Below are positions 1,366-62,862 of a stretch of DNA of 64,000 nt, piece after piece; position 1 is the stretch's first letter, and the number at the start of each line of letters is the position of its first letter. Source of the stretch: Cinclus cinclus (lineage: Eukaryota > Chordata > Aves > Passeriformes > Cinclidae); contig NC_085080.1 in the NCBI RefSeq assembly GCF_963662255.1, positions 999,503 through 1,063,502 of the forward strand, read 5' to 3'. The notes below the pieces were generated by a model. That model was not told where the DNA came from, searched no databases, and saw only the letters and a list, made by a program, of their open reading frames with translations. The position numbers and the translations under genes were made by a program.

Positions 1366-4300
1366 CTCTGTCCTTGGCCCGGGGCTCCTTCCTCTTCCTC
1401 TTCCGGGCAGGTTTGAGCCATGGACTTTCCTTCCAGCGGCGCCGGGCGCGGCGTCGGGAGCTGGATGCGCTCTGGGGGGCGGGGGGAGGGTCAGGGACCA
1501 CCAAAATAACCCCAAAATGATCCTGAATACACCTGGACGCCCCCAAATACCCCTAAAACCGCTCCAAATACCCCCAAAGTGATCCTAAAATAAACCAAAA
1601 TGGACCCAAAATGATCCTAAATAACCCAAAATAACCCCCAAAATGATCCCAAATAACCCAAAATAACCCCCAAAATGATCCTAAATAACCCAAAATAACC
1701 CCCAAAATGATCCCAAATAACCCAAATAACCCCCAAAATGATCCTAAATAACCCAAAATAACCCCCAAAATGATCCTAAATAACCCAAAATAACCCCCAA
1801 AATGATCCCAAATAACCCAAAATAACCCCCAAAATGATTCTAAAAAACCCAAAATAGACACAAAATGGACACAAAATGATCCTAAATCACCCAAAATACC
1901 CCTAAAATGATCCTAAAAAATGATCCTGACACCCCAAAACTCCCCCAAATCCCCCCCAAATGCCCCCGACCCCCTCCCCAGCTCCCCCTCACCCGATCCG
2001 AGGCGTTCCCGGACTCTTCGTCCTCCTCCTCCTCCTCTTCCTCCTCTTCCTCCTCCTCCTCGTCCTCCTCCTCTTCCTCCTCCTCCTCCTCCTCCTCCTC
2101 GCTCAGGGCCTCTCCCGGCCCCTCCCCCTCCGACTGACACAGGGCTCAAATGGGGGGAGGGGCTGGGGCTGCTCCCCTTCCCCAAATTCCTCCCAGCGCG
2201 CCCAGTTCATTCCCAGTGCTCCCAGTTCATTCCCAGTGCTCCCAGTTCATTCCCAGGGCTCCCAGTCCCTCCCAGTCCCTCCAAGTCCATCCCAGTCCAT
2301 CCCAGTCCCTCCCAGTCCCTCCCAGTCCATCCCAGTCCCTCCAAGTCCCTCCCAGTCCATCCCAGTCCATCCCAGTCCCTCCCAGTCCCTCCCAGTCCCA
2401 CCTTGCTGTCCGAGTCCCCGTGTCCATCCACACTGAACCCTCCCCGTCCCTCCCAGTCCCTCCCAGTCCATCCCAGTCCATCCCAGTCCCATCCCAGTCC
2501 CATCCCAGTCCCTCCCAGTCCATCCCAGTCCCATCCCAGTCCATCCCAGTCCCTCCCAGTCCATCCCAGTCCCATCCCAGTCCATCCCAGTCCCATCCCA
2601 GTCCCTCCCAGTCCATCCCAGTCCCATCCCAGTCCATCCCAGTCCCTCCCAGTCCATCCCAGTCCCATCCCAGTCCCATCCCAGTCCCTCCCAGTCCATC
2701 CCAGTCCCTCCCAGTCCCATCCCAGTCCCTCCCAGTCCATCCCAGTCCCATCCCAGTCCATCCCAGTCCATCCCAGTCCCTCCCAGTCCATCCCAGTCCC
2801 ATCCCAGTCCCATCCCAGTCCCATCCCAGTCCCATCCCAGTCCCTCCCAGTCCCATCCCAGTCCCTCCCAGTCCATCCCAGTCCCATCCCAGTCCATCCC
2901 AGTCCATCCCAGTCCCATCCCAGTCCATCCCAGTCCCTCCCAGTCCCATCCCAGTCCCATCCCAGTCCCTCCCAGTCCCTCCCAGTCCCATCCCAGTCCC
3001 ATCCCAGTCCATCCCAGTCCATCCCAGTCCCATCCCAGTCCATCCCAGTCCCATCCCAGTCCATCCCAGTCCCTCCCAGTCCCATCCCAGTCCCATCCCA
3101 GTCCCTCCCAGTCCCTCCCAGTCCCATCCCAGTCCCATCCCAGTCCCATCCCAGTCCCTCCCAGTCCCATCCCAGTCCCTCCCAGTCCATCCCAGTCCCA
3201 TCCCAGTCCATCCCAGTCCATCCCAGTCCCATCCCAGTCCATCCCAGTCCCTCCCAGTCCCATCCCAGTCCCATCCCAGTCCCTCCCAGTCCCTCCCAGT
3301 CCCATCCCAGTCCCTCCCAGTCCCTCCCAGTCCCATCCCAGTCCCATCCCAGTCCATCCCAGTCCCATCCCAGTCCCTCCCAGTCCATCCCAGTCCATCC
3401 CAGTCCCTCCCAGTCCCACCTTGCTGTCCGAGTCCCCGTGTCCATCCACACTGAACCCTCCCCGTCCCTCCCAGTCCCTCCCAGTCCATCCCAGTCCCTC
3501 CCAGTCCATCCCAGTCCCTCCCAGTCCCATCCCAGTCCCTCCCAGTCCCATCCCAGTCCATCCCAGTCCCTCCCAGTCCCATCCCAGTCCCTCCCAGTCC
3601 ATCCCAGTCCCATCCCAGTCCATCCCAGTCCCATCCCAGTCCCTCCCAGTCTCATCCCAGTCCCTCCCAGTCCATCCCAGTCCCTCCCAGTCCCATCCCA
3701 GTCCCTCCCAGTCCATCCCAGTCCCATCCCAGTCCATCCCAGTCCCATCCCAGTCCCTCCCAGTCTCATCCCAGTCCATCCCAGTCCCATCCCAGTCCCT
3801 CCCAGTCCATCCCAGTCCCATCCCAGTCCATCCCAGTCCCTCCCAGTCCATCCCAGTCCCTCCCAGTCCCTCCCAGTCCCACCTTGCTGTCCGAGTCCCC
3901 GTGTCCATCCACACTGAACCCATCGTAGAACAGGGAGAATCCCCCTCCCCCTTCCGAGTCCCAGTCCCGGGGGGGGGCGGCCATTTCCTCCGTCACCGTG
4001 ATCTGGGGGGGATTTGGGGACATTTTGGGGGGTCCTGGAGGATTTTGGGGGGTCCTGGAGGGGGTTTTGGGGGTATTTTGGAAGATTTTTGGGGGGTCCT
4101 GGGAGGATTTTGGGGGATCCTGGGAGGATTTGGGGGGATCCTGGGAGGATTTGGGGGGAATTTGGGGGATTCTGGGGGGGAGGGGGGGTCCTGGAGGGGG
4201 TTTGGGGATATTTTGGGGGGTCCTGGGGGAATTTGGGGGGGGTCTTGGGGAGATTTTGGGGGGTTCTGGGATGTTTTTGGGGGGTCCTGGAGGGGGTTTG

Positions 4301-45868: not shown

Positions 45869-48800
45869 TGTTAGAGGCAGCTGAGGGCGAGCGGGCAGGG
45901 GACGTATGGGGGCCATAGGGGATCTATAGGGGCGGTTTGGGGCGTCTGGAGGGATCCAGATGGGTCTGGGGGTTTCTAAAAAGGGTCAGGAAGAGGTTTA
46001 GGGGGGTTTGAGGGGGGTATAGAATGGCGGGGGGGGTGCGCGTGGGCGTGGGGGCATATAGGGCGGTATAGGGGAGGTATAGGGGATATTTCGGGGGGTC
46101 GAGGGGGTTTTGGGATGTATGGAGGGTGTGGGGGCGGGTTCAAGGGAGGTCTGGGGGGATTTTATGGGGTCTAAGGGGGTGTGTATGGGATCTATAGGGG
46201 ATCTATAGGGGAGGTTTGGGGGGATATTGGGAATATCCGGAGTGGTTTCTGGGGATATCCGGAACCTATGGATTGTGGGGGGGGGAGGATTGATGGCACC
46301 TATAGAGGGTGGGGGTTGGATCTGTAGGGGATTTATGGCGCCTGTATTGGATCTATAAGGGGGGACTTGGGGAACATCCGGAGTGGTTTCTGGGGATATC
46401 CGAAACCTATGGGGGCTATATGGGATTTTGGGGGGGGGAGGGTGGGTTGGGCCCTATATGGGACCTGGGGGGAGGGTCTGGGGTCTATAGGGGAGTCTGG
46501 GGGGTGTTTTGATCCNNNNNNNNNNNNNNNNNNNNNNNNNNNNNNNNNNNNNNNNNNNNNNNNNNNNNNNNNNNNNNNNNNNNNNNNNNNNNNNNNNNNN
46601 NNNNNNNNNNNNNNNNNNNNNNNNNNNNNNNNNNNNNNNNNNNNNNNNNNNNNNNNNNNNNNNNNNNNNNNNNNNNNNNNNNNNNNNNNNNNNNNNNNNN
46701 NNNNNNNNNNNNNNNACTCCATTTTCCCTTATTTTTTTCCAGATTTTTTTCTCCGTTTTTCCCCTTTTTTTTTTTTTTTTTCCCGTTTTCTCCCGCGATT
46801 TTCAGGGTTTCCTCCATTTCCCCTCCCCAGTTTTTATCCCCCCCTCCCCCCCTCCATTCCCGTTTTTTTTTTTCTTTTTATTTCCGTTTTCCCCTTTTTT
46901 CTTCCCCCCACCTTTTCCCCTCGTTTTTTCATCCTTTTATTTCCCATTTTCCCCGTTTTTTCCCCTTTATTTCCCCATCTCCCCCCCCCCGCCAATTCCA
47001 CTTTTCCCCCATTTTTTATTTTGAATTTCCTTAAATCCCAGCGCCCACCCCTTAAAAAAAAATTTTTCCCCTCCCCGTTTTTTAAACTCTATCATTCCCT
47101 GGATTTCTTCTCCATGGAAACCCCAAATCCTTCCTTAAACCCTTCCCAAAATTTGGAAAACCGGGATTAGGGTGGGAATTAAGGTGGGAATTTGGGGGGG
47201 GGGTGGGTGGAAGGAAGTCCATGACCCCTAAAAAAATTCCCTAAAAATTCCCTAAAAAACCTCCCTCCCTCCCCCCCCCAAAAAAAATCCCTTTAAACAT
47301 CCTCTCCAAAAAATCCAAAATATGGAAAATTACCCCAAAAAAATCCCTAAACAAATTGCCAAAAAAAATCCCGCCCCCTAAAAATACAAAATATGGACAA
47401 TTACCCCAAAAATTCCCTAAAAAAAAAATTCCCTAAAAACAAACAAACAAACAAAAAAACCTAAAAAAAAATCACACGCCCCCCCAAAAAATCCCAAATA
47501 TGAAAAATCCCCAAATTTAAAGATTTTTTTTCCCCCCACCCAGGATCCCAAAATCCAACCCGGAGCTGTTGGAATTCCAGGGATTCGTGACTTTCCGAAC
47601 CCCGCCCCCCCCAAAAAAAAAAAAAAAAAAAAAATCACCAAAAATTTCGGGATAAGCTCGGAATTCCGGGACGAGATGCAGGAGAGCTACGAGAGCGTCA
47701 TTTCCTTGGGTAAGACCCCAAATTTCTTGGATTTCCCCTAAATTCGGGCTCCAATCCCCAAATTTTTAACCCTAAAATTAAAATTAATCCGATCTAAGAT
47801 TAATTCAGTTTTCAATTAATTGGGTGTTAAACAAATTTGGGTGTTTGGGTTTTTTTTTATTAAAAAATGGGAATGAAAACGGATCCCGCCCCGATTCCGG
47901 CGGGATTTTGCCGGATTTCGGGGTCCGAGCCGTGTCCGGTTGTTCCCGGCAGCCGAGGAGATCGCCATCAGTTGGCCGCGGATCACAGCGTTCGCCGAAT
48001 CGCACCGGAGACGCGGCCTGGGCACCGGTGAGTCAACGGTGGCCAACGGGGCTTGGCCAAGAGGGGGTTGGGTTCTTCCAGTTGGCCAACTCAACCGTGA
48101 GAGTGTTGGGTTCTTCCAGTTGGCCAACGCAATGAGAAGAGTGGTTGGACTCTTCCAGTTGGCCAAGGCAATCATGAATGGGTTTGGACTCTTCCAGTTG
48201 GCCAACGTAACCAAGACCTTGGTTGGTCATTCCAATGAAGAGCGTGGTTGGGTTCTTCCAGTTGGCCAACTCAACCCAAAGTGGGTTTGGGCTCTTCCAA
48301 TCCAACCATGAAGGGGTTTGGACTCTTCCAGTTGGCCAACCCAACTAGATCCCAAAAATCTCTTCTGGGGACTCCAAAACCCTCCCAGGATTCTGTCCCC
48401 GAGTCCCTCTAAGATCCTCAAACCCATCCAAGATCCCAAGAATCCCAAATTCCCTCAAAGATCCCAAATCCATCCCAAAGCCCCCCTCCAAGACCCCAAA
48501 ATTCCTCCAAACCCCAAATTCCCTGGAATTTCCCAAAGTTCCCCAGGACCCCAAAACCCCAAAATTCTGTACAGGAACCCAAAAATCTCACAAGATCCAA
48601 AATCCCCCCAAAATACCCTCAAAATCCCTCCAGGACCCCAGATCCTTGCCCCAAAACCCTAAAATCCCCCCCAAACCACCAAAACCTCCCCAAAACTCCT
48701 CCAGGACCCCAAAAAGCTTCCGGGATCCCAAATCTTGCCCAAAATATCCTCAAAATCCTGCCCAAAATCCCCCCCAGGACCCCAAATCCTCCTCCCCAGA

Positions 48801-54884: not shown

Positions 54885-57800
54885 TCAGAGGCTGACGCTC
54901 CGGTGATGCCGAAAATTCCGGCGTTTTTCCCTCCCCTCCCCCAACTCCTCGCTGTGCAGGCTCAGAGCGTCCGGAATTCCCGAAATTCCCGGAATTCCCG
55001 ACAAATGTTCCACGGAATCGAATTTCTGCAGATCCGAGGCGATGGTTTGGAGGCTCAGAACCGACAGGGAATCGCCGGAATCGGAAATTCCCGCCGGAAT
55101 TCCGCCCGTTCCGGAGTCATCACCGGGAATTCCGGGGATTTCTTCGGGAATTCCATGGATTTCACTGGGAATTCCAGGAATTCCACGAATTTCTCCTGAA
55201 ATTCCGCTGATTTTTCCAGGAATTCTGCTGATTTCTTCGGGAATTCCACTGATTTTTCCAGGAATTCCAGGAATGCCATGGATTTCACTGGGAATTCTGC
55301 AGATTTCGTTGGGATTTCCACTGATTTTGCCAGGAATTCCACCTGGAATTCCGCTGATTTCTTCCGGAATTCCGCTGATATTTCCCGGAATTCCGCTGAT
55401 TTCTCCTGGAATTCCGCTGATTTTTCCCGCAATTCCGGGAATTTCGGGGTTTTGGGAGCCTCCCTCAGCTCCCAGGGGGTTTTCCCGATGTTTTTTCCGG
55501 AGGATTCTCTGGAATCTTCGGGCGTGGATTTCTTCGCTGATCTGCTCCAAATTCCGAAGGGCCACGGAATACCGGAGCTTGGCCTGGGACACGGCGGATT
55601 CCAGGGAATTCACCCGGGATTTGTGCTCCTGGAAAAAGGGGGGAAATTGGGAATTCCGAGAAATTCCCAAAAAAATCGTAAAAAAAATCCCGGCGAAAAT
55701 CGGCAAAAATTCGGGGAAAATCCGTTAAAATTCGGTAGAAATTAAAAAAAAAAGAAAAATTGTTTATTCCTTAAGATTCCAAGGAATTCCTGAGGATTCC
55801 AAAAAATTCCTAAAAATCCCAAGGGATTTTTAAGAATTCCTTTTTTTCTGTAAAAATTTGGAGAAAATCCCCACCAAAAAAAAAAAAAAAAAAAAAAAAT
55901 TGGGGTGAATTCCATAAAAATTTGATGAAAATCCGTTAAAATCCTGAAAAAATTAGTGTTCAATCCCTAAAAATTCCAAAGGATTCCTAGAAATTCCTCT
56001 GAATTTTTAAAAATTCCCCAAAATATTGTTTTAAAAAAAATGCATAAAATTCATAAAAATTGGGGAAAAAATCCTTAAAAAACGGGGTTTAGCTCCTTAA
56101 AAATTCTGTGAAAATTCCTTAAAATTTTCCTTAAAATTCCTCAGAATCCCCAAAAAATGGATGGGAAAAAGCGGGATCCGAACCTCCCAGTTCCTCCCAG
56201 TTTGTCCCAGTCCCTCTCCCAGTGCTCCCAGTTCCCTTCCATCCCATCCCCAGTGCTCCCAGTTCCCTTCCATCCCTTCCCCAGTGCTCCCAGTTCCCTT
56301 CCATCCCATTCCCAGTGCTCCCAGTTCCCTTCAATCCCATTCCCAGCCCTCCAAACCCATCCCAGTCCCTCTCCCAGTGCTCCCAGTACCTCCAGTCTCT
56401 GGTTGAACTGGGCCTTCAGCTCGAAGTAGGGCCGGCTCCCAGTGCTCCCAGTTCCCTTCCATCCCATTCCCAGTGCTCCCAGTTCCCTTCAATCCCATTC
56501 CCAGTGCTCCCAGTTCCCTTCAATCCCATTCCCAGCCCTCCAAACCCATCCCAGTCCCTCTCCCAGTGCTCCCAGTACCTCCAGTCTCTGGTTGAACTGG
56601 GCCTTCAGCTCGAAGTAGGGCCGGCTCCCAGTGCTCCCAGTTCCCTTCCATCCCATTCCCAGTGCTCCCAGTTCCCTTCCATCCCATTCCCAGCCCTCCC
56701 AACCCATCCCAGTCCCTCTCCCAGTGCTCCCAGTACCTCCAGTCTCTGGTTGAACTGGGCCTTCAGCTCGAAGTAGGGCCGGCTCCCAGTGCTCCCAGTT
56801 CCCTTCCATCCCATTCCCAGTGCTCCCAGTTCCCTTCCATCCCATTCCCAGCCCTCCCAACCCATCCCAGTCCCTCTCCCAGTGCTCCCAGTACCTCCAG
56901 TCTCTGGTTGAACTGGGCCTTCAGCTCGAAGTAGGGCCGGCTCCCAGTGCTCCCAGTTCCCTTCCATCCCATTCCCAGTGCTCCCAGTTCCCTTCCATCC
57001 CATTCCCAGCCCTCCCAACCCATCCCAGTCCCTCTCCCATTGCTCCCAGTACCTCCAGTCTCTGGTTGAACTGGGCCTTCAGCTCGAAGTAGGGCCGGCT
57101 CCCAGTGCTCCCAGTTCCCTTCCATCCCATTCCCCAGTGCTCCCAGTTCCCTTCCATCCCATTCCCAGTGCTCCCAGTTCCCTTCCATCCCATTCCCAGC
57201 CCTCCCAACCCATCCCAGTCCCTCTCCCAGTGCTCCCAGTACCTCCAGTCTCTGGTTGAACTGGGCCTTCAGCTCAAAGTAGGGCCGGCTCCCAGTGCTC
57301 CCAGTTCCCTTCCATCCCATCCCCAGTGCTCCCAGTTCCCTTCCATCCCATTCCCAGTGCTCCCAGTTCCCTTCCATCCCATTCCCAGTGCTCCCAGTTC
57401 CCTTCCATCCCATTCCCAGCCCTCCCAACCCATCCCAGTCCCTCTCCCAGTGCTCCCAGTACCTCCAGTCTCTGGTTGAACTGGGCCTTCAGCTCGAAGT
57501 AGGGCCGGCTCCCAGTGCTCCCAGTTCCCTTCCATCCCATCCCCAGTGCTCCCAGTTCCCTTCAATCCCATTCCCAGTGCTCCCAGTTCCCTTCAATCCC
57601 ATTCCCAGCCCTCCAAACCCATCCCAGTCCCTCTCCCAGTGCTCCCAGTACCTCCAGTCTCTGGTTGAACTGGGCCTTCAGCTCGAAGTAGGGCCGGCTC
57701 CCAGTGCTCCCAGTTCCCTTCAATCCCATCCCCAGTGCTCCCAGTTCCCTTCCATCCCATTCCCAGTGCTCCCAGTTCCCTTCCATCCCATTCCCAGTGC

Positions 57801-60800
57801 TCCCAGTTCCCTTCCATCCCATTCCCAGCCCTCCCAACCCATCCCAGTCCCTCTCCCAGTGCTCCCAGTACCTCCAGTCTCTGGTTGAACTGGGCCTTCA
57901 GCTCGAAGTAGGGCCGGCTCCCAGTGCTCCCAGTTCCCTTCCATCCCATTCCCAGCCCTCCCAACCCATCCCAGTCCCTCTCCCAGTGCTCCCAGTACCT
58001 CCAGTCTCTGGTTGAACTGGGCCTTCAGCTCAAAGTAGGGCCGGCTCCCAGTGCTCCCAGTTCCCTTCCATCCCATTCCCAGTGCTCCCAGTTCCCTTCA
58101 ATCCCATCCCCAGTGCTCCCAGTTCCCTTCCATCCCATTCCCAGTGCTCCCAGTTCCCTTCCATCCCATTCCCAGCCCTCCCAACCCATCCCAGTCCCTC
58201 TCCCAGTGCTCCCAGTACCTCCAGTCTCTGGTTGAACTGGGCCTTCAGCTCGAAGTAGGGCCGGCTGCGGGCGATGTCGCGCCTCAGGGATTTCTGCAGC
58301 CTCTGCACCTCGGCCTCGGCCTCCTGGCACAGCCTCGTCACCCTCTGGTGCTCCCGCTCGCTCCAGAGCCTCTCCTGCTCCGCCTCGTTCACCTGCCGCG
58401 CCCAAAATTCCCAAAAGAGTTGGAAAATCGGGAAGGATCCCTAAAAACACCCGGCGAAAATCGGCCGAGAAACGGGTGGGAAATGGGGTTTTTTACCGAA
58501 AAACGGAGGGGTTTTTTTTTTTCTTCTTTTTTTTTTTTTTTTTCCCTCCCCATTCTTTTCTCGATCCCACATCCCCAAATTTTCAAATTTGAAATGTTGG
58601 CAGATTCATGACATTCCCAGAATTCCCAAAATTCCCAGAATTCCCGTCCTTCCTGGTGGCGTGCCTGAGTGTCTCCTGCCAGGTGGGATCCAGGAGGTTT
58701 ATCCCATCCCCAATCCCATTCCCACCACTCCCACCATTCCCAAATCCCAGAATCCCCAAAATCCCAAATCCCCCAAATCCAAGATCCCCAAATCCCAGAT
58801 TCCCAGAATTCCAGGATTGATTCCTGCCCTTCCTGGTGCCGTGGTTCAGCATCTCCTGCCAGGTTGGCTCCAGTTGGTTTCTCCCAAATCCCAACATTCC
58901 CAAACCTTCTCCAACCATCCCAAAAACCCCGTTCCCACCGCTCCAAAAATTCCGAAAAAAATTCCCAAAAAATCCCCAGAATTCCCGGAACTCCCGACCT
59001 TCCTGGTGGCGTGGTTGAGCATCTCCTGCCAGGTGGGATCCAGGCGGTTTTTCCCGGTTCCCATTCCCTGCTCCGCCACGAACACCATCTCCAGCATTCC
59101 CAAATCCCAAAACCCCAGAATCCCCAAAATCCCAAATCCAAGTTTCCTGAACTCTTCAACCCCCAAATTCTTTAAATCTCAGAATTCCCAGAATTCCAGG
59201 ATTGATTCCTGACCTTCCTCCACACCACTTCCTGGTGCCGTGGTTCAGCATCTCCTGCCAGCCAGGTGGCTCCTCCCAAATCCCAACGTTCCCAACCATT
59301 CTCCAACCATTCCCAACATCCCAGAATCCCCAGAATTCCCAGATTTAACTCCCAGAATCCCCAAATTTAATTCCCAGAATTCCTGACTTCCCTGGTGCCG
59401 TGGTTCAGCATCTCCTGCCACGTCGGCTCCAGGCGATTTCCTCCCATTTCCAACCACCCCAAAAACCCCATTCCCACCGCTCCAAAAATTCCCAAAAAAA
59501 TTCCGGGAATTCCCGACCTTCCTGGTGGCGTGGTTGAGCATCTCCTGCCAGGTGGGATCCAGGCGGTTTTTCCCGGTTCCCATTCCCTGCTCCGCCACGA
59601 ACACCATCTCCCGCGCCGCGTTGTGCATCCCCACCGCCCGCTCGTAGCGCAGCGCCGCCCGCTGCGTCTCCTGCTGGGCCTGCGGGGGGGAGATGGGAAT
59701 TCTGGGAATTCCGGGGGTTCCGGGGATTCTGGGGGTTCTGGGGGTTCTGGGGATTCTGGGGGTTCCGGGGATTCCGGGGGTTCTGGGGGTTCTGGGAATT
59801 CCGGGGGTTCCGGGGGTTCTGTGGATTCTGGGGGTTCTGGGGGTTCTGGGAATTCCGGGGGTTCTGGGGGTTCTGTGGATTCTGGGGGTTCTGTGGATTC
59901 TGGGGGTTCCGTGGATTCTGGGGGTTCCGGGGATTCTGGGGGTTCTGGGGGTTCCGGGGGTTCTGGGAATTCCGGGGATTCCAGGGGTTCCGGGGGTTCT
60001 GTGGATTCTGGGGGTTCTGGGAATTCCGGGGATTCCAGGGGTTCCGGGGGTTCCGGGGATTCCAGGGGATCCGGGGGTTCTGTGGATTCTGGGGGTTCTG
60101 GGGATTCTGGGGGTTCTGGGGGTTCCGGGGATTCTGGGAATTCCGGGGATCCGGGGGTTCCGTGGATTCCGGGAGCTCCGGGGATTCCGGGGATCCGGGG
60201 GTTCCGTGGATTCTGGGGGTTCTGGGGATTCCAGGGGTTCTGGGGGTTTTGGGGGTTCCGGGGATTCCGGGGGTTCTGGGAATTCCGGGGGTTCTGGGGA
60301 TTCTGGGAATTCCGGGGGTTCCGGGGGTTCTGTGGATTCTGGGGGTTCTGGGAATTCTGGGGGTTCCAGGGATTCTGAGGATTCTGGGGATTTTGGGGAT
60401 TCTGGGAATTCTGGAGTTTCTGAGGATTCTGGGGATTTTAGGAACTCTGGGGGTTCTGGGGATTCTGGGGATTTTGGGAATTCTGGGGATTCTGAGGATT
60501 CTGGGGATTTTGGGAATTCTGGGGATTCTGAGGATTCTGGGGGTTCTGGCGGTTCTGGGGATTCTGGGAGTTCTGGGGGTTCCAGGGATTCTGGGAATTC
60601 TGAGGATTCTGGGGGATTTTAGGAATTCTGGGGTTTTTGGGGATTCTGGGATTTCTGAGGATTCTGGGGATTTTGGGAATTCTGAGGATTCTGGGAATTC
60701 TGGGGATTCTGGGAATTCTGGGGGTTCCAGGGATTCTGCGGGTTCTGGGGATTCTGGGAATTTTGGGAATTCTGGGGATTCTGGGGATTTTGGAATTCTG

Positions 60801-62862
60801 GGGATTTTGGGGATTCTGGGGATTTTGGGAATTCTGGGGGTTCCAGGGATTCTGGGGATTCTGGGGATTTTGGGAATTCTGGGGGTTCCAGGGATTCTGG
60901 GGATTCTGGAAGTTTGGGGGATTCTGGGAATTCTAAGGATTCTGGGGATTCTGGAGAGGGAAGGATTTGGTGGGATTTGATCCGTGGGGTGGGGATTTGG
61001 GATGTGTGGGATGGGATTGGAGAAGTGGGAGAGGGTTTGGGATGGGATTGGGATGGAATTAAGATTTGGGATGGGTTGGAAAAGATTTGGCATTGGAAAA
61101 GATTTGGAATTGAGATGGGAAAAGATTTGGGATGGGATTGGAGAAGATCACGGAGGATTGGGATTTTTTCCCCCGTTTTTTTCAGGATTTTTTTCCCGTT
61201 TTTCCCATTTTTTTCCCCGGGTTTTCCCCCAAAACCCCATGACCTCCTTGGCTCTCCTCCTGGCCTCGTAGTGGATGTGATTTGGGATGGGAATTCCCAT
61301 TCTTCCTACGATTTGGGATGGGAATTCCCATTTTTCCTGTGGTTTTTCAGGATTATATTTTTGTTTTTTCCCCCGTTTTTTCCCCGTTTTCCCCGGGTTT
61401 TCCCCCAAAATCCCATCACCTCCTTGGCTCTCCTCCTGGCCTCGTAGTAGGGCCGGGCTCTGTCGATGCAATTCCCGAGCTGGGATCCCTGGGAATTCAA
61501 TTTCCGGGCGGAATCCGAGAGGATGCGGCGATAGCGGGAACGGGCGGCCTGGGAGGGAAAACCAGTTTGGGACTGGTTTGGACTGGGAACCACTTTGAGC
61601 CTGGTTTGGAACTGGTTTGGAACTGGCTTGGGACTGGGAACCAGTTTGGGACTGGTTTGGACTGGTTTGAGACTAGGAACCAGTTTGGGATTGGGAACCA
61701 GTTTGGGACTGGTTTGGACTGGGAACCACTTTGAGCCTGGTTTGGAACTGGTTTGGAACTGGCTTGGGACTGGGAACCAGTTTGGGACTGGTTTGGACTG
61801 GGAACCACTTTGAGCCTCGTTTGGAACTGGTTTGGAACTGGCTTGGGACTGGGAACCAGTTTGGGACTGGTTTGGAACCGGTTTGAGACTGGGAACCAGT
61901 CCATTCCAGTTCATCCCAGTTCCCTCCCAGTCCACTCCCAGCTTATCCCAGTCCATCCCAGTTTATCCCAGTTCCCTCCCAGTCCATTCCCAGCTTATCC
62001 CAGTCCATCCCAATTTATCCCAGTTCCCTCCCAGTCCATTCCCAGCTTATCCCAGTCCATCCCAATTTATCCCAGTTCCCTCCCAGTCCCTCCCACTCCA
62101 CTCCATCCTTTTCCAGTCCCTCCCACTCTATCCCAGTCCCTCCCAGTTCATTCCCAGTCTGTCTCAGTTCCTTCCCAGTCCCTCCCAGTCCATTCCCAGT
62201 CCCTCCCAGTTCATCCCAGTTGCTCACATCCAGCTCCAGCTCCCCCCGGTTGATTTCAGCGTTGGCCTCGTTCAGGTGCTCGAGCTCCTCCTGAAACCCA
62301 AAAATTTGGGATAAAAACCCCAAAAATCCGGGAAAGGACACCCCAAAAAGTCCCAAAATTCAGGGCATAACAAAATTTCTGGGATTTTCCCTCAAAATTC
62401 TCCCCAAAATTCCCAAATTTTGGCCCAAATCTCCCCCCAAATCCCAAAATTTCTGGGATTCCCCCAAAATACCAAAATTTGGACCCCAACTCCCCCCAAA
62501 ACCCCAAGATTTTTGGGATTCACCCCAAAATTTCCTCAAATCCTAAAATTCCGACCACAAGACTCCAAATTTCTGGAATTTCTCCCAAAAACCAATTTTC
62601 TGGAATTTTCCCTCCAAAAAAACCAAAATTTCCAACCAAAAAAGCCCCCCCAAAAATCCCCAATTTTCTGGGATTTTCCCCCAAAACCCAAAACTTCAAG
62701 CCCCAACCCCCCCAAAATTTTGGGATTTTTTTCTTCAAATTCCCCAAATTTTGGGATTTCTCCCCAAATTCCCACCTGGATCCGGGGGTCCAGCTCTTCC
62801 TCCTCCTCCTCCTCGTCCTCCTCGTCCTTCGGGGGATTCCCGGGATTTTCCGAATCCCCCAT
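54885..62862 (-). CDS. SH3BP5L: SH3BP5L, SH3-binding protein 5-like (RAB11 GEF family)
   Basis: SH3BP5-family proteins are cytosolic coiled-coil exchange factors for RAB11. Six coding exons, all in phase 0: 62862-62776, 62290-62228, 61548-61420, 59679-59518, 58392-58219, 55628-54885; total 452 aa (human 393). The acidic start runs into LDPRIQEELEHLNEANAEIN, then RRILSDSARKLNSQGSQLG, ARPYYEARRRAKEAQQET, HNAAREMVFVAEQG, NRLDPTWQEMLNHATRK, EREHQRVTRLCQEAEAEVQ, SRPYFELKAQFNQRLEEHK, RYSVALRNLEQISEEIHARR. These build the long helical coiled coil (about 25-235). The C-terminal half contains a bird-specific run of about 20 (E/K)ISGIPG units, then TIASDLQKFDSVEHLSG and the terminal HHRSVSL shared with human SH3BP5L. 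The SVSL ending favours SH3BP5L over SH3BP5. The introns hold multiple copies of exon ends. Confidence 0.95.
55100..55440 (-). repeat. In-frame GGAATTCC(N)7 repeat in the SH3BP5L last exon
   Basis: About 20 units of 15-18 bp around GGAATTCCG/GGAATTCCA, translated as (E/K)ISGIPG and IPEEISGIPG. Same GGAATTCC words occur in neighbouring introns. Confidence 0.88.
56215..58260. repeat. Higher-order repeat carrying ten extra copies of a SH3BP5L exon end
   Basis: A core of 127 bp contains GTACCTCCAGTCTCTGGTTG and the exon codons SRPYFELKAQFNQRLE (minus strand) with donor GTACTGG. Anchors lie at 56401, 56590, 56748, 56906, 57064, 57254, 57474, 57663, 57883, 58010 and the genuine exon 58230. Spacings of 127, 158, 189/190 and 220 equal 127 plus 0-3 copies of the 31-bp subunit CCCAGTGCTCCCAGTTCCC plus TTCCATCCCATT. 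Confidence 0.97.
58645..59450 (-). repeat. Five partial copies of SH3BP5L exon 59518-59679
   Basis: Anchors (CCTGGTG) at 58652, 58832, 59002, 59231 and 59391 repeat the end of the genuine exon (59521). The copy at 59002 is longest (about 95 bp, minus-strand VFVAEQGMGTGKNRLDPTWQ and following to NHATRK). The others keep LDPTWQEMLNHGT- or similar, with substitutions, and their donors have decayed (AAGG then GAATT or TCGGG). Confidence 0.93.
59692..60960. repeat. GGGGATTCTGGGGGTTCCGG 9-bp array
   Basis: About 140 nonamer units GGGGATTCT, GGGGGTTCC, GGGAATTCC between SH3BP5L exons 59518-59679 and 61420-61548. Gly/Ser/Asp frames on the plus strand are artefacts. Confidence 0.95.
61243..61272 (-). 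pseudogene. Copy of the 3' end of SH3BP5L exon 61420-61548
   Basis: Minus strand YEARRRAKE plus a GTCATGG donor-like sequence, 176 bp from the true exon end. The flanking GAATTCCCATT/TCCCCGGGTTTTCCCCCAAAA is duplicated with it. Confidence 0.88.
61560..62225. repeat. TTTGGGACTGGTTTGGACTGG and CCCAGTTCCCTCCCAGTCCA repeats
   Basis: 61560-61900 holds GGTTTGGAACTGG units with a direct repeat of about 95-105 bp (61574, 61712, 61794). 61900-62220 holds ten-bp CCCAGTTCCC/CCCAGTCCAT units. Both lie in one SH3BP5L intron. Confidence 0.9.
62300..62775. other. SH3BP5L intron, C/A-rich words
   Basis: CCCCAAAATTTCTGGGATTTT and CCCAAAATTCC words. No gene is seen. Confidence 0.7.

Follow-up and report, generated by a model that had tools for sequence, protein, structure and literature searches.

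Tandem copies of the exon 5 end in intron 5 of SH3BP5L on a repeat-rich microchromosome of the white-throated dipper, very probably an instance of exon stuttering

SH3BP5L of Cinclus cinclus, the white-throated dipper, carries ten extra copies of the end of its fifth exon in the intron that follows. The gene lies in a window of 64,000 nucleotides (the whole stretch of DNA analysed; scaffold C38:999503-1063502 of assembly bCinCin1.1), where it is readable as six exons on the minus strand, all in phase 0 and without an internal stop. The product of exon 5 matches the Pfam family SH3BP5 (PF05276, E 9e-17), and a protein search returned C. cinclus SH3BP5L isoform X2 with 100% identity across 74% of the query. 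The same window contains a DDR1 gene, recognized by a PDB match for one segment and by a kinase or DDR domain in three of four segments.

The assembly comprises 277 scaffolds and 1,170,691,195 bases, the longest scaffold, C1, having 152,364,536. According to the available part of the genome report, it was built from PacBio high-fidelity (HiFi) data (49.72 Gb in 4.19 million reads, ~41-fold, quality value (QV) 62.2), and the project's RNA data consist of Illumina reads from blood (PMC11747308). Division of the yield by the read number gives a mean HiFi read of ~12 kb. Scaffold C38 is 1,346,321 bp long and falls into two parts: in a survey of 20 sampled 10-kb stretches, tandem repeats occupy 1-11% in each of the ten stretches at or below 570 kb and 44-86% in each of the ten lying at or beyond 620 kb (L023, in this second group, includes 3,498 N). 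The window belongs to the repeat-rich half. This two-part pattern resembles the split of chicken dot chromosomes into repeat-rich euchromatin and less repetitive heterochromatin, as the available text of Hron et al. 2026 describes it (PMC12954441). C38 is a dot-type microchromosome, a class assigned from size and composition only.

The array at exon 5 consists of 11 minus-strand copies of a 47-nt exon end together with 10 intron bases, ten of them in intron 5. The exon's own copy occupies 58209-58265, and the extra copies start at 57989, 57862, 57642, 57453, 57233, 57043, 56885, 56727, 56569, and 56380, which gives spacings, counted outward from the exon, of 220, 127, 220, 189, 220, 190, 158, 158, 158, and 189. 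The exon part common to all copies is the last 48 coding nucleotides of exon 5. Each unit is formed by a 96-nt head (47 exon and 49 intron nucleotides) followed by one to four subunits of 31 nt. The lone spacing of 190 coincides with one additional base in copy 6, and the three 158-nt units adjoin one another. A first-pass annotation, made from the letters of the window alone, had described the exon end and its 5′ splice site as present ten extra times downstream, at spacings of 127, 158, 189/190, and 220, with a 31-bp subunit repeated 0-3 times on a 127-bp core. Count and spacings were recovered on measurement, and the core-based description is equivalent to the head-based one because the final 31 nt of the core are themselves one subunit. 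The further description as a tandem array of donor-bearing exon fragments within a gene is borne out by a SH3BP5L that is real and intact. The array is indeed found in the interval proposed for it, 56401..58260, although its true span is slightly larger (~56217-58266).

The copies cannot be attributed to chance, since the exon 5 tail gives ten matches above 42.1 bits in intron 5 (95.6 bits each in the six listed), while no match of at least 20 nt arose in 100 base-shuffles of the SH3BP5L introns. Their origin is local; a search of the window's own assembly returned at least 11 matches, namely the exon and its ten copies. Tandem repeats detected by Tandem Repeats Finder (TRF) make up 87% of intron 5, the values for the five SH3BP5L introns being 37-98%. 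On the coding strand, G-quadruplex (G4) motifs occupy 51% of the array, where 200 base-shuffles average 5%; the opposite strand has 0%.

Multiplication of a single exon end by an assembly error would produce a similar picture, and repeat-rich dot chromosomes are hard to assemble, as stated in the accessible part of a further source (PMC13192246); the window itself contains a gap of 200 N at 46516-46715. The assembly, however, rests on HiFi reads of the depth and quality given above, which are about six times as long as the array (1.9 kb), and the units differ from one another in private variants and in subunit number, unlike the stutter of one read. An artefact of this kind is exceedingly improbable.

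The eleven heads contain three variable sites, one in the 47 exon positions and two in the 49 intron positions, with at most one change per copied head. The exon site is a C>T change in TTCGAG (TTC>TTT) found in copies 2 and 6, the 47-nt exon part being identical in the other nine. As calculated from the frequencies at the three sites, the mean pairwise difference of the heads is ~1%, so the array is young or homogenised. A T variant in the first subunit accompanies all three heads with the site-84 variant (copies 4, 10, and 11) and none of the other eight. Head and first subunit thus appear to move together while the inner subunits vary alone, a pattern that points to two levels of copying, as would be left by repeated local duplication or unequal exchange.

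This near-identity makes the array a plausible substrate for gene conversion, and it has to be considered whether the copies serve as templates by which the end of exon 5 is kept uniform or, conversely, overwritten. The exon parts are identical save at one site. The intron part of the head is about as uniform, however, which assigns the uniformity to the whole unit, and no overwriting is seen in that the 16 residues encoded by the end of exon 5 are shared by Cinclus, Catharus, Oenanthe, and Coccothraustes. A conversion role is therefore very improbable. By the same comparison of copies, the open SRPYFELKAQFNQRLE codons and the lone silent TTC>TTT change pointed out in the first-pass annotation are present as described but carry no weight as evidence of conservation; alignment of the copies gives no sign of selection on their coding content.

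In the predicted protein of Geospiza fortis, exon 5 ends in an odd sequence (LARNIARSQPCLELKAQFNLRLE) that sets it apart from Passerculus, Coccothraustes, and Agelaius and that may represent a diverged copy, conversion, or a sequence error. A partial predicted protein of Zonotrichia leucophrys gambelii continues beyond the exon 5 donor into ...LRLEVLGYTGIYWEGH, a sign that in this sparrow, too, an ACTGGGA-like repeat opens intron 5.

Exon ends are copied at more than one exon of SH3BP5L (Table 1). A screen of exon edges with the published stuttering settings (blastn-short, matches of at least 20 nt, bit score of at least 42.1, shuffled control) found 16 matches in the adjacent introns, all on the same strand: one for exon 3, five for exon 4, and ten for exon 5. 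The lowest score among the 12 listed of these 16 is 50.1 bits. In fifteen of them, the match ends no more than 1 nt from the donor border; in the sixteenth, it stops 3 nt short. In this screen, SH3BP5L gave no copy of an exon start and no distal match above 42.1 bits. Exon-end copies are therefore present in three of the five introns, and these three (introns 3, 4, and 5) are consecutive. The exon 4 copies are of mixed age. Four of the five differ by ~6-11% in the aligned piece, two are without the donor GT, and one is identical over 94 nt.

Several classes of match were left uncounted: those of exon 1, which is GAG-rich and of low complexity; those of the last 15-23 nt of exon 2 with its repeat-like intron start, which match elsewhere in the window; those of exon 6, arising from its own internal repeat with GGAATTCC-like motifs; and weak matches of two DDR1 segments (68.8-83.3% identity in one and 74.1% in the other). 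For DDR1, 12 peptide segments were chosen by eye, and the exon limits are approximate. This survey gave three exon-start copies and one exon-end copy, so either edge of an exon can be copied. A general bias of the copying process toward donors, considered because SH3BP5L has 16 end copies and no start copy, is not claimed in view of the DDR1 counts. The copies at exons 3 and 4 and those in DDR1, as well as the published status of exon stuttering (in the text available, PMC12954441), had escaped the first-pass annotation.

Table 1. Coordinates in the window of SH3BP5L exons, the exon 5 array, and exon-edge copies in SH3BP5L and DDR1
Feature	Position	Strand	Basis or remark
SH3BP5L exon 1	62862-62776	-	gene reading
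SH3BP5L exon 2	62290-62228	-	gene reading
SH3BP5L exon 3, end copied once in intron 3	61548-61420	-	gene reading and exon-edge search
Exon 3 end copy in intron 3, 29 nt identical, with donor	61244-61272	-	exon-edge screen
SH3BP5L exon 4, end copied five times in intron 4	59679-59518	-	gene reading and exon-edge search
Diverged exon 4 end copy, 88.9%, match stops 3 nt before exon border	59391-59435	-	exon-edge screen
Diverged exon 4 end copy, 94.1%, 14 extra nt before donor-like GTC	59228-59261	-	exon-edge screen
Exon 4 end copy in intron 4, 94 nt identical plus 7 nt of intron	58999-59092	-	used in annotated isoform X2
Diverged exon 4 end copy, 91.1%, donor GT to GG	58829-58873	-	exon-edge screen
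Diverged exon 4 end copy, 89.5%, donor GT to GA	58649-58705	-	exon-edge screen
SH3BP5L exon 5, 174 nt, supplies the copied end (58219-58266)	58392-58219	-	Pfam, gene reading
Tandem array, 11 x 96-nt head, each with 1-4 x 31-nt subunits; first head begins in exon 5, remainder in intron 5	~56217-58266	-	low end deduced from copy 11 and four subunits
Exon-end copy 2, TTC>TTT, gives first TGA stop in read-through frame	57999-58046	-	sequence match
Exon-end copy 3	57872-57919	-	sequence match
Exon-end copy 4	57652-57699	-	sequence match
Exon-end copy 5	57463-57510	-	sequence match
Exon-end copy 6, TTC>TTT	57243-57290	-	sequence match
Exon-end copy 7	57053-57100	-	sequence match
Exon-end copy 8	56895-56942	-	sequence match
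Exon-end copy 9	56737-56784	-	sequence match
Exon-end copy 10	56579-56626	-	sequence match
Exon-end copy 11	56390-56437	-	sequence match
SH3BP5L exon 6 to stop codon, holds in-frame coding repeat (ISGIPGE...)	55628-54885	-	gene reading
DDR1 exon, start copied upstream at 33397-33244 and 34278-34129, end copied downstream at 31035-30945	~32608-32375		segment survey
DDR1 exon, start copied at 30760-30689	~30580-30437		segment survey

The ohnolog SH3BP5 serves as an internal control. It is located on scaffold C1 (152 Mb, non-dot), where tandem repeats make up 0-2.6% of six SH3BP5 stretches, as opposed to 37-98% of the five SH3BP5L introns; in SH3BP5 introns 4 and 5, the TRF value is 0-1.2%. No exon-edge copy was found in these two introns with exon 4, exon 5, and a mini-exon as queries (exons 3 and 6 were not queries), the sole match of at least 20 nt being exon 5 itself at the edge of the stretch. 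The mini-exon is a side observation in its own right. In SH3BP5, the homologous exon end forms a separate exon of 43 nt (4150-4192 of its stretch, L039), and the copied SH3BP5L segment (58219-58266) begins just 4-5 nt upstream of the SH3BP5 intron position, perhaps by chance.

All 11 donors of the exon 5 array read GTACTG, and decoy splicing is for this reason possible in principle. Use of any copied donor would lengthen exon 5 by at least 220 nt and introduce an in-frame TGA at codon 121 from the exon 5 start. This stop exists because copy 2 carries TTT, the nominally silent change creating a stop codon in the read-through frame. It lies 31 nt before the junction for copy 2 and at least 158 nt before it for copies 3-11. 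Nonsense-mediated decay (NMD) generally acts on stop codons more than 50-55 nt upstream of a junction; by this rule, transcripts spliced at copies 3-11 would be NMD targets and those spliced at copy 2 would not.

These features could make the array a splice decoy or poison element, in which ten extra donors compete for the U1 small nuclear ribonucleoprotein (snRNP), divert transcripts to stop-containing extensions of exon 5, and thereby tune SH3BP5L. The identical donors, the in-frame stop that follows from each copied one, the predicted NMD, and the Zonotrichia protein that reads beyond the exon 5 donor all speak for such a role. It is nevertheless quite improbable, as no donor but the first lies at normal exon length from an acceptor, and none of seven dipper read-through peptides was present among 155 proteins drawn from the best 120 of 877 and the best 120 of 787 matches. 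The copies at other exons and in DDR1, together with the two exon 4 copies that have lost their donors, also argue against a purpose specific to exon 5. It is expected that the exon's own donor is used and that the copied donors are a rare leak at most.

The arrangement can be compared with a process already described in birds. Sequence stuttering, including exon stuttering, was reported on chicken dot chromosomes by Hron et al. 2026 (PMC12954441), and the following account is limited to the part of that publication available. In chicken, exon stuttering affects 115 genes and 236 introns, 190 of these on dot chromosomes, with copied segments of 20-187 nt (median 36), 1-44 copies (median 4), and a span of 112-23,555 bp (median 1,751). 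The corresponding dipper values are 48 nt, 10 copies, and ~1,877 bp. In both cases, tandem copies of the lateral part of a coding exon, including the splice donor or acceptor, run through the intron next to it, and the setting is the same: copies at exon borders, a repeat-rich intron, a dot-type chromosome, and an unaffected ohnolog elsewhere. In the published cases, the copied segment mostly reaches to no more than 1 base from the exon border and so takes the splice site with it. The authors note possible alternative transcripts and mention expansions in some other birds, which are unnamed in the text. They leave the mechanism open between replication stress or G4 repair and meiotic conversion (PMC12954441).

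The dipper array differs from the chicken cases in the following respects, again within the available text. The host is an oscine songbird; the anatomy of the unit is accurate to the base, for which the nanopore consensus alleles of the chicken study were insufficiently exact; and SH3BP5L exon 6 holds an expanded coding repeat, whereas in their account coding regions stay intact. SH3BP5L is not found in the main text of Hron et al. 2026 (PMC12954441). A literature search on stuttering phrases returned nothing beyond that paper, and one on SH3BP5L and microchromosomes returned nothing.

Ordinary intronic minisatellites, or variable number tandem repeats (VNTRs), consist of tandem units, with a two-level structure and with variants common to several units. 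The dipper array shares all three properties; it departs from a VNTR of this type in that its unit holds 48 coding bases with a working-looking donor and in that the phenomenon recurs at several exons. Tandem duplication of an AGGT-bearing exon segment can also give rise to a new intron, for which a new donor and a new acceptor are needed. With this process the array has in common a duplication across an exon border and extra splice-site copies; unlike it, there is no new intron in evidence, the exon is unchanged, and the copies offer no convincing acceptor. The best acceptor-like YAG within the array is preceded by 9 pyrimidines in 18 positions (8 in 18 for the real acceptor), and intron gain, although documented for tandem genomic duplication in the accessible parts of two sources (PMC4974935, PMC3443670), finds no support here. 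The copies were also considered as true exons with acceptors of their own, which is unlikely given that the array has no polypyrimidine tract.

Very probably, then, the dipper array is an instance of exon stuttering and a near-neutral by-product of repeat instability. As such, it would have probably no job of its own and be a side effect of repeat growth. It is hypothesized that the process started, on a microchromosome that is repeat-rich and of dot type, from a G-rich minisatellite of the ACTGGGA type with which intron 5 begins, and that a tandem duplication reaching 48 nt into exon 5 enlarged this minisatellite. Unequal exchange, slippage, or conversion could have raised the resulting unit (exon end, 5′ splice site, intron start, and 31-nt subunit) to eleven copies, and the 31-nt subunit would have multiplied independently within units. 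That the array is tolerated probably reflects the retention of the real donor, the only one to follow the real acceptor at normal exon length.

Several observations weigh against exon stuttering as a neutral by-product. All 11 donors are intact and identical, so that the silence of the copies has to be inferred. The true acceptor of exon 5 is poor as well, having 8 of 18 pyrimidines, which weakens the argument from missing acceptors. Nor does the G-rich strand bias hold everywhere, since the coding strand of intron 3, an intron that also contains an exon copy, is C-rich overall (skew -0.47). Of eight features of stuttering chosen for the comparison, seven are present in the dipper; the eighth is length variation between individuals, and the sequence here is one haplotype of one bird. 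Finally, the NCBI isoform X2, which starts MLEMVFVAEQ, might represent real use of a copied donor. Its ATG lies at 59097 in intron 4 and leads into the 94-nt copy of exon 4, whose donor at 58998 is joined to exon 5; this translation and the isoform agree across the 60 residues that were compared. X2 may also be a mapping artefact because reads with 94 nt or fewer on the exon 4 side cannot separate the copy from the exon. For annotators, this means that short reads across the exon 4-5 junction confuse the true exon end with its intronic copy, and isoforms such as X2 need long reads.

Exon stuttering, until now detailed in chicken as far as the available text goes (PMC12954441), is hereby extended to an oscine bird at HiFi base accuracy, in three consecutive introns and with an unaffected ohnolog for comparison.

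The lengths of the repeat units bear on how such arrays may grow. In the window, the unit lengths of 181 tandem arrays are quantised with a best spacing of 10.45 bp at phase 0 (0 of 2000 jittered nulls as strong). The sample is scaffold C38 only (the window and loci L011-L030). Quantisation is kept for the 118 arrays with units of at least 15 bp (0 of 1000 nulls) and is weaker for the 56 with units of at least 26 bp (32 of 1000). The 176 arrays of the repeat-rich half outside the window are quantised as well (0 of 2000), with a best spacing of 10.0-10.2 bp rather than 10.45 bp, and the 59 arrays of the repeat-poor half are not (421 of 2000 nulls as strong). At 10.45 bp per step, 31 and 127 correspond to about 3 and 12 turns, and 158, 189, and 220 equal 127 + k x 31.

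Shared motif ancestry is a possible and trivial cause of this quantisation. When one array was kept per motif family, 83 families gave 0 of 1000 nulls as strong and 30 families gave 1 of 1000 (best spacing 10.0 bp); at the loosest threshold, 174 of the 181 arrays fell into one family and 8 were left, with 6 of 1000 nulls and a best spacing of 9.7 bp. Derivation of the ~21-bp units from two 10-mers was rejected for most of them, as self-identity at a shift of 10 or 11 reaches 70% in just 11 of the 94 units of 19-23 bp. The mean self-identity of the 19-23-bp units at these shifts is slightly above that of shuffled units (0.42-0.43 versus 0.35), so that an older common ancestry may play a part.

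A tentative and rather doubtful proposal is that arrays of the repeat-rich half, the exon 5 array among them, grow in steps of one helical turn, that exon ends are captured where an array abuts a donor, and that some captured donors are used, the last being hinted at by the start of annotated isoform X2 in the exon 4 copy. Expansion would then take place on DNA held at a fixed rotational phase, for example by nucleosomes, topological constraint, or stacked G4 or R-loop structures. If true, a step of about one helical turn would provide a direct, testable handle on the mechanism of stuttering instability. Literature searches on helical repeat-unit lengths found nothing.

A separate expansion affects the coding sequence of SH3BP5L. 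Exon 6 (54885-55628) contains an in-frame ISGIPGE-type repeat, and the linker that it encodes was surveyed in 34 proteins, two of which were without an anchor. In C. cinclus, the linker has 150 residues in isoform X2 and 58 in X1. It reaches 200-347 residues in Oenanthe, Catharus, Geospiza, Lonchura, and Passerculus and has 31-75 in C. mexicanus, Coccothraustes, Pseudopodoces, Agelaius, Cettia, Climacteris, and Origma, 40-44 in four suboscines, and 34-52 in the non-passerine birds measured. The expanded repeat is thus found in some of the measured oscines and in none of the other birds measured. The sole single deletion in exon 6 that reproduces X1 from X2 is 276 nt long and has no GT-AG ends; the difference could reflect a shorter repeat allele in another bird or an artefact of the gene model.

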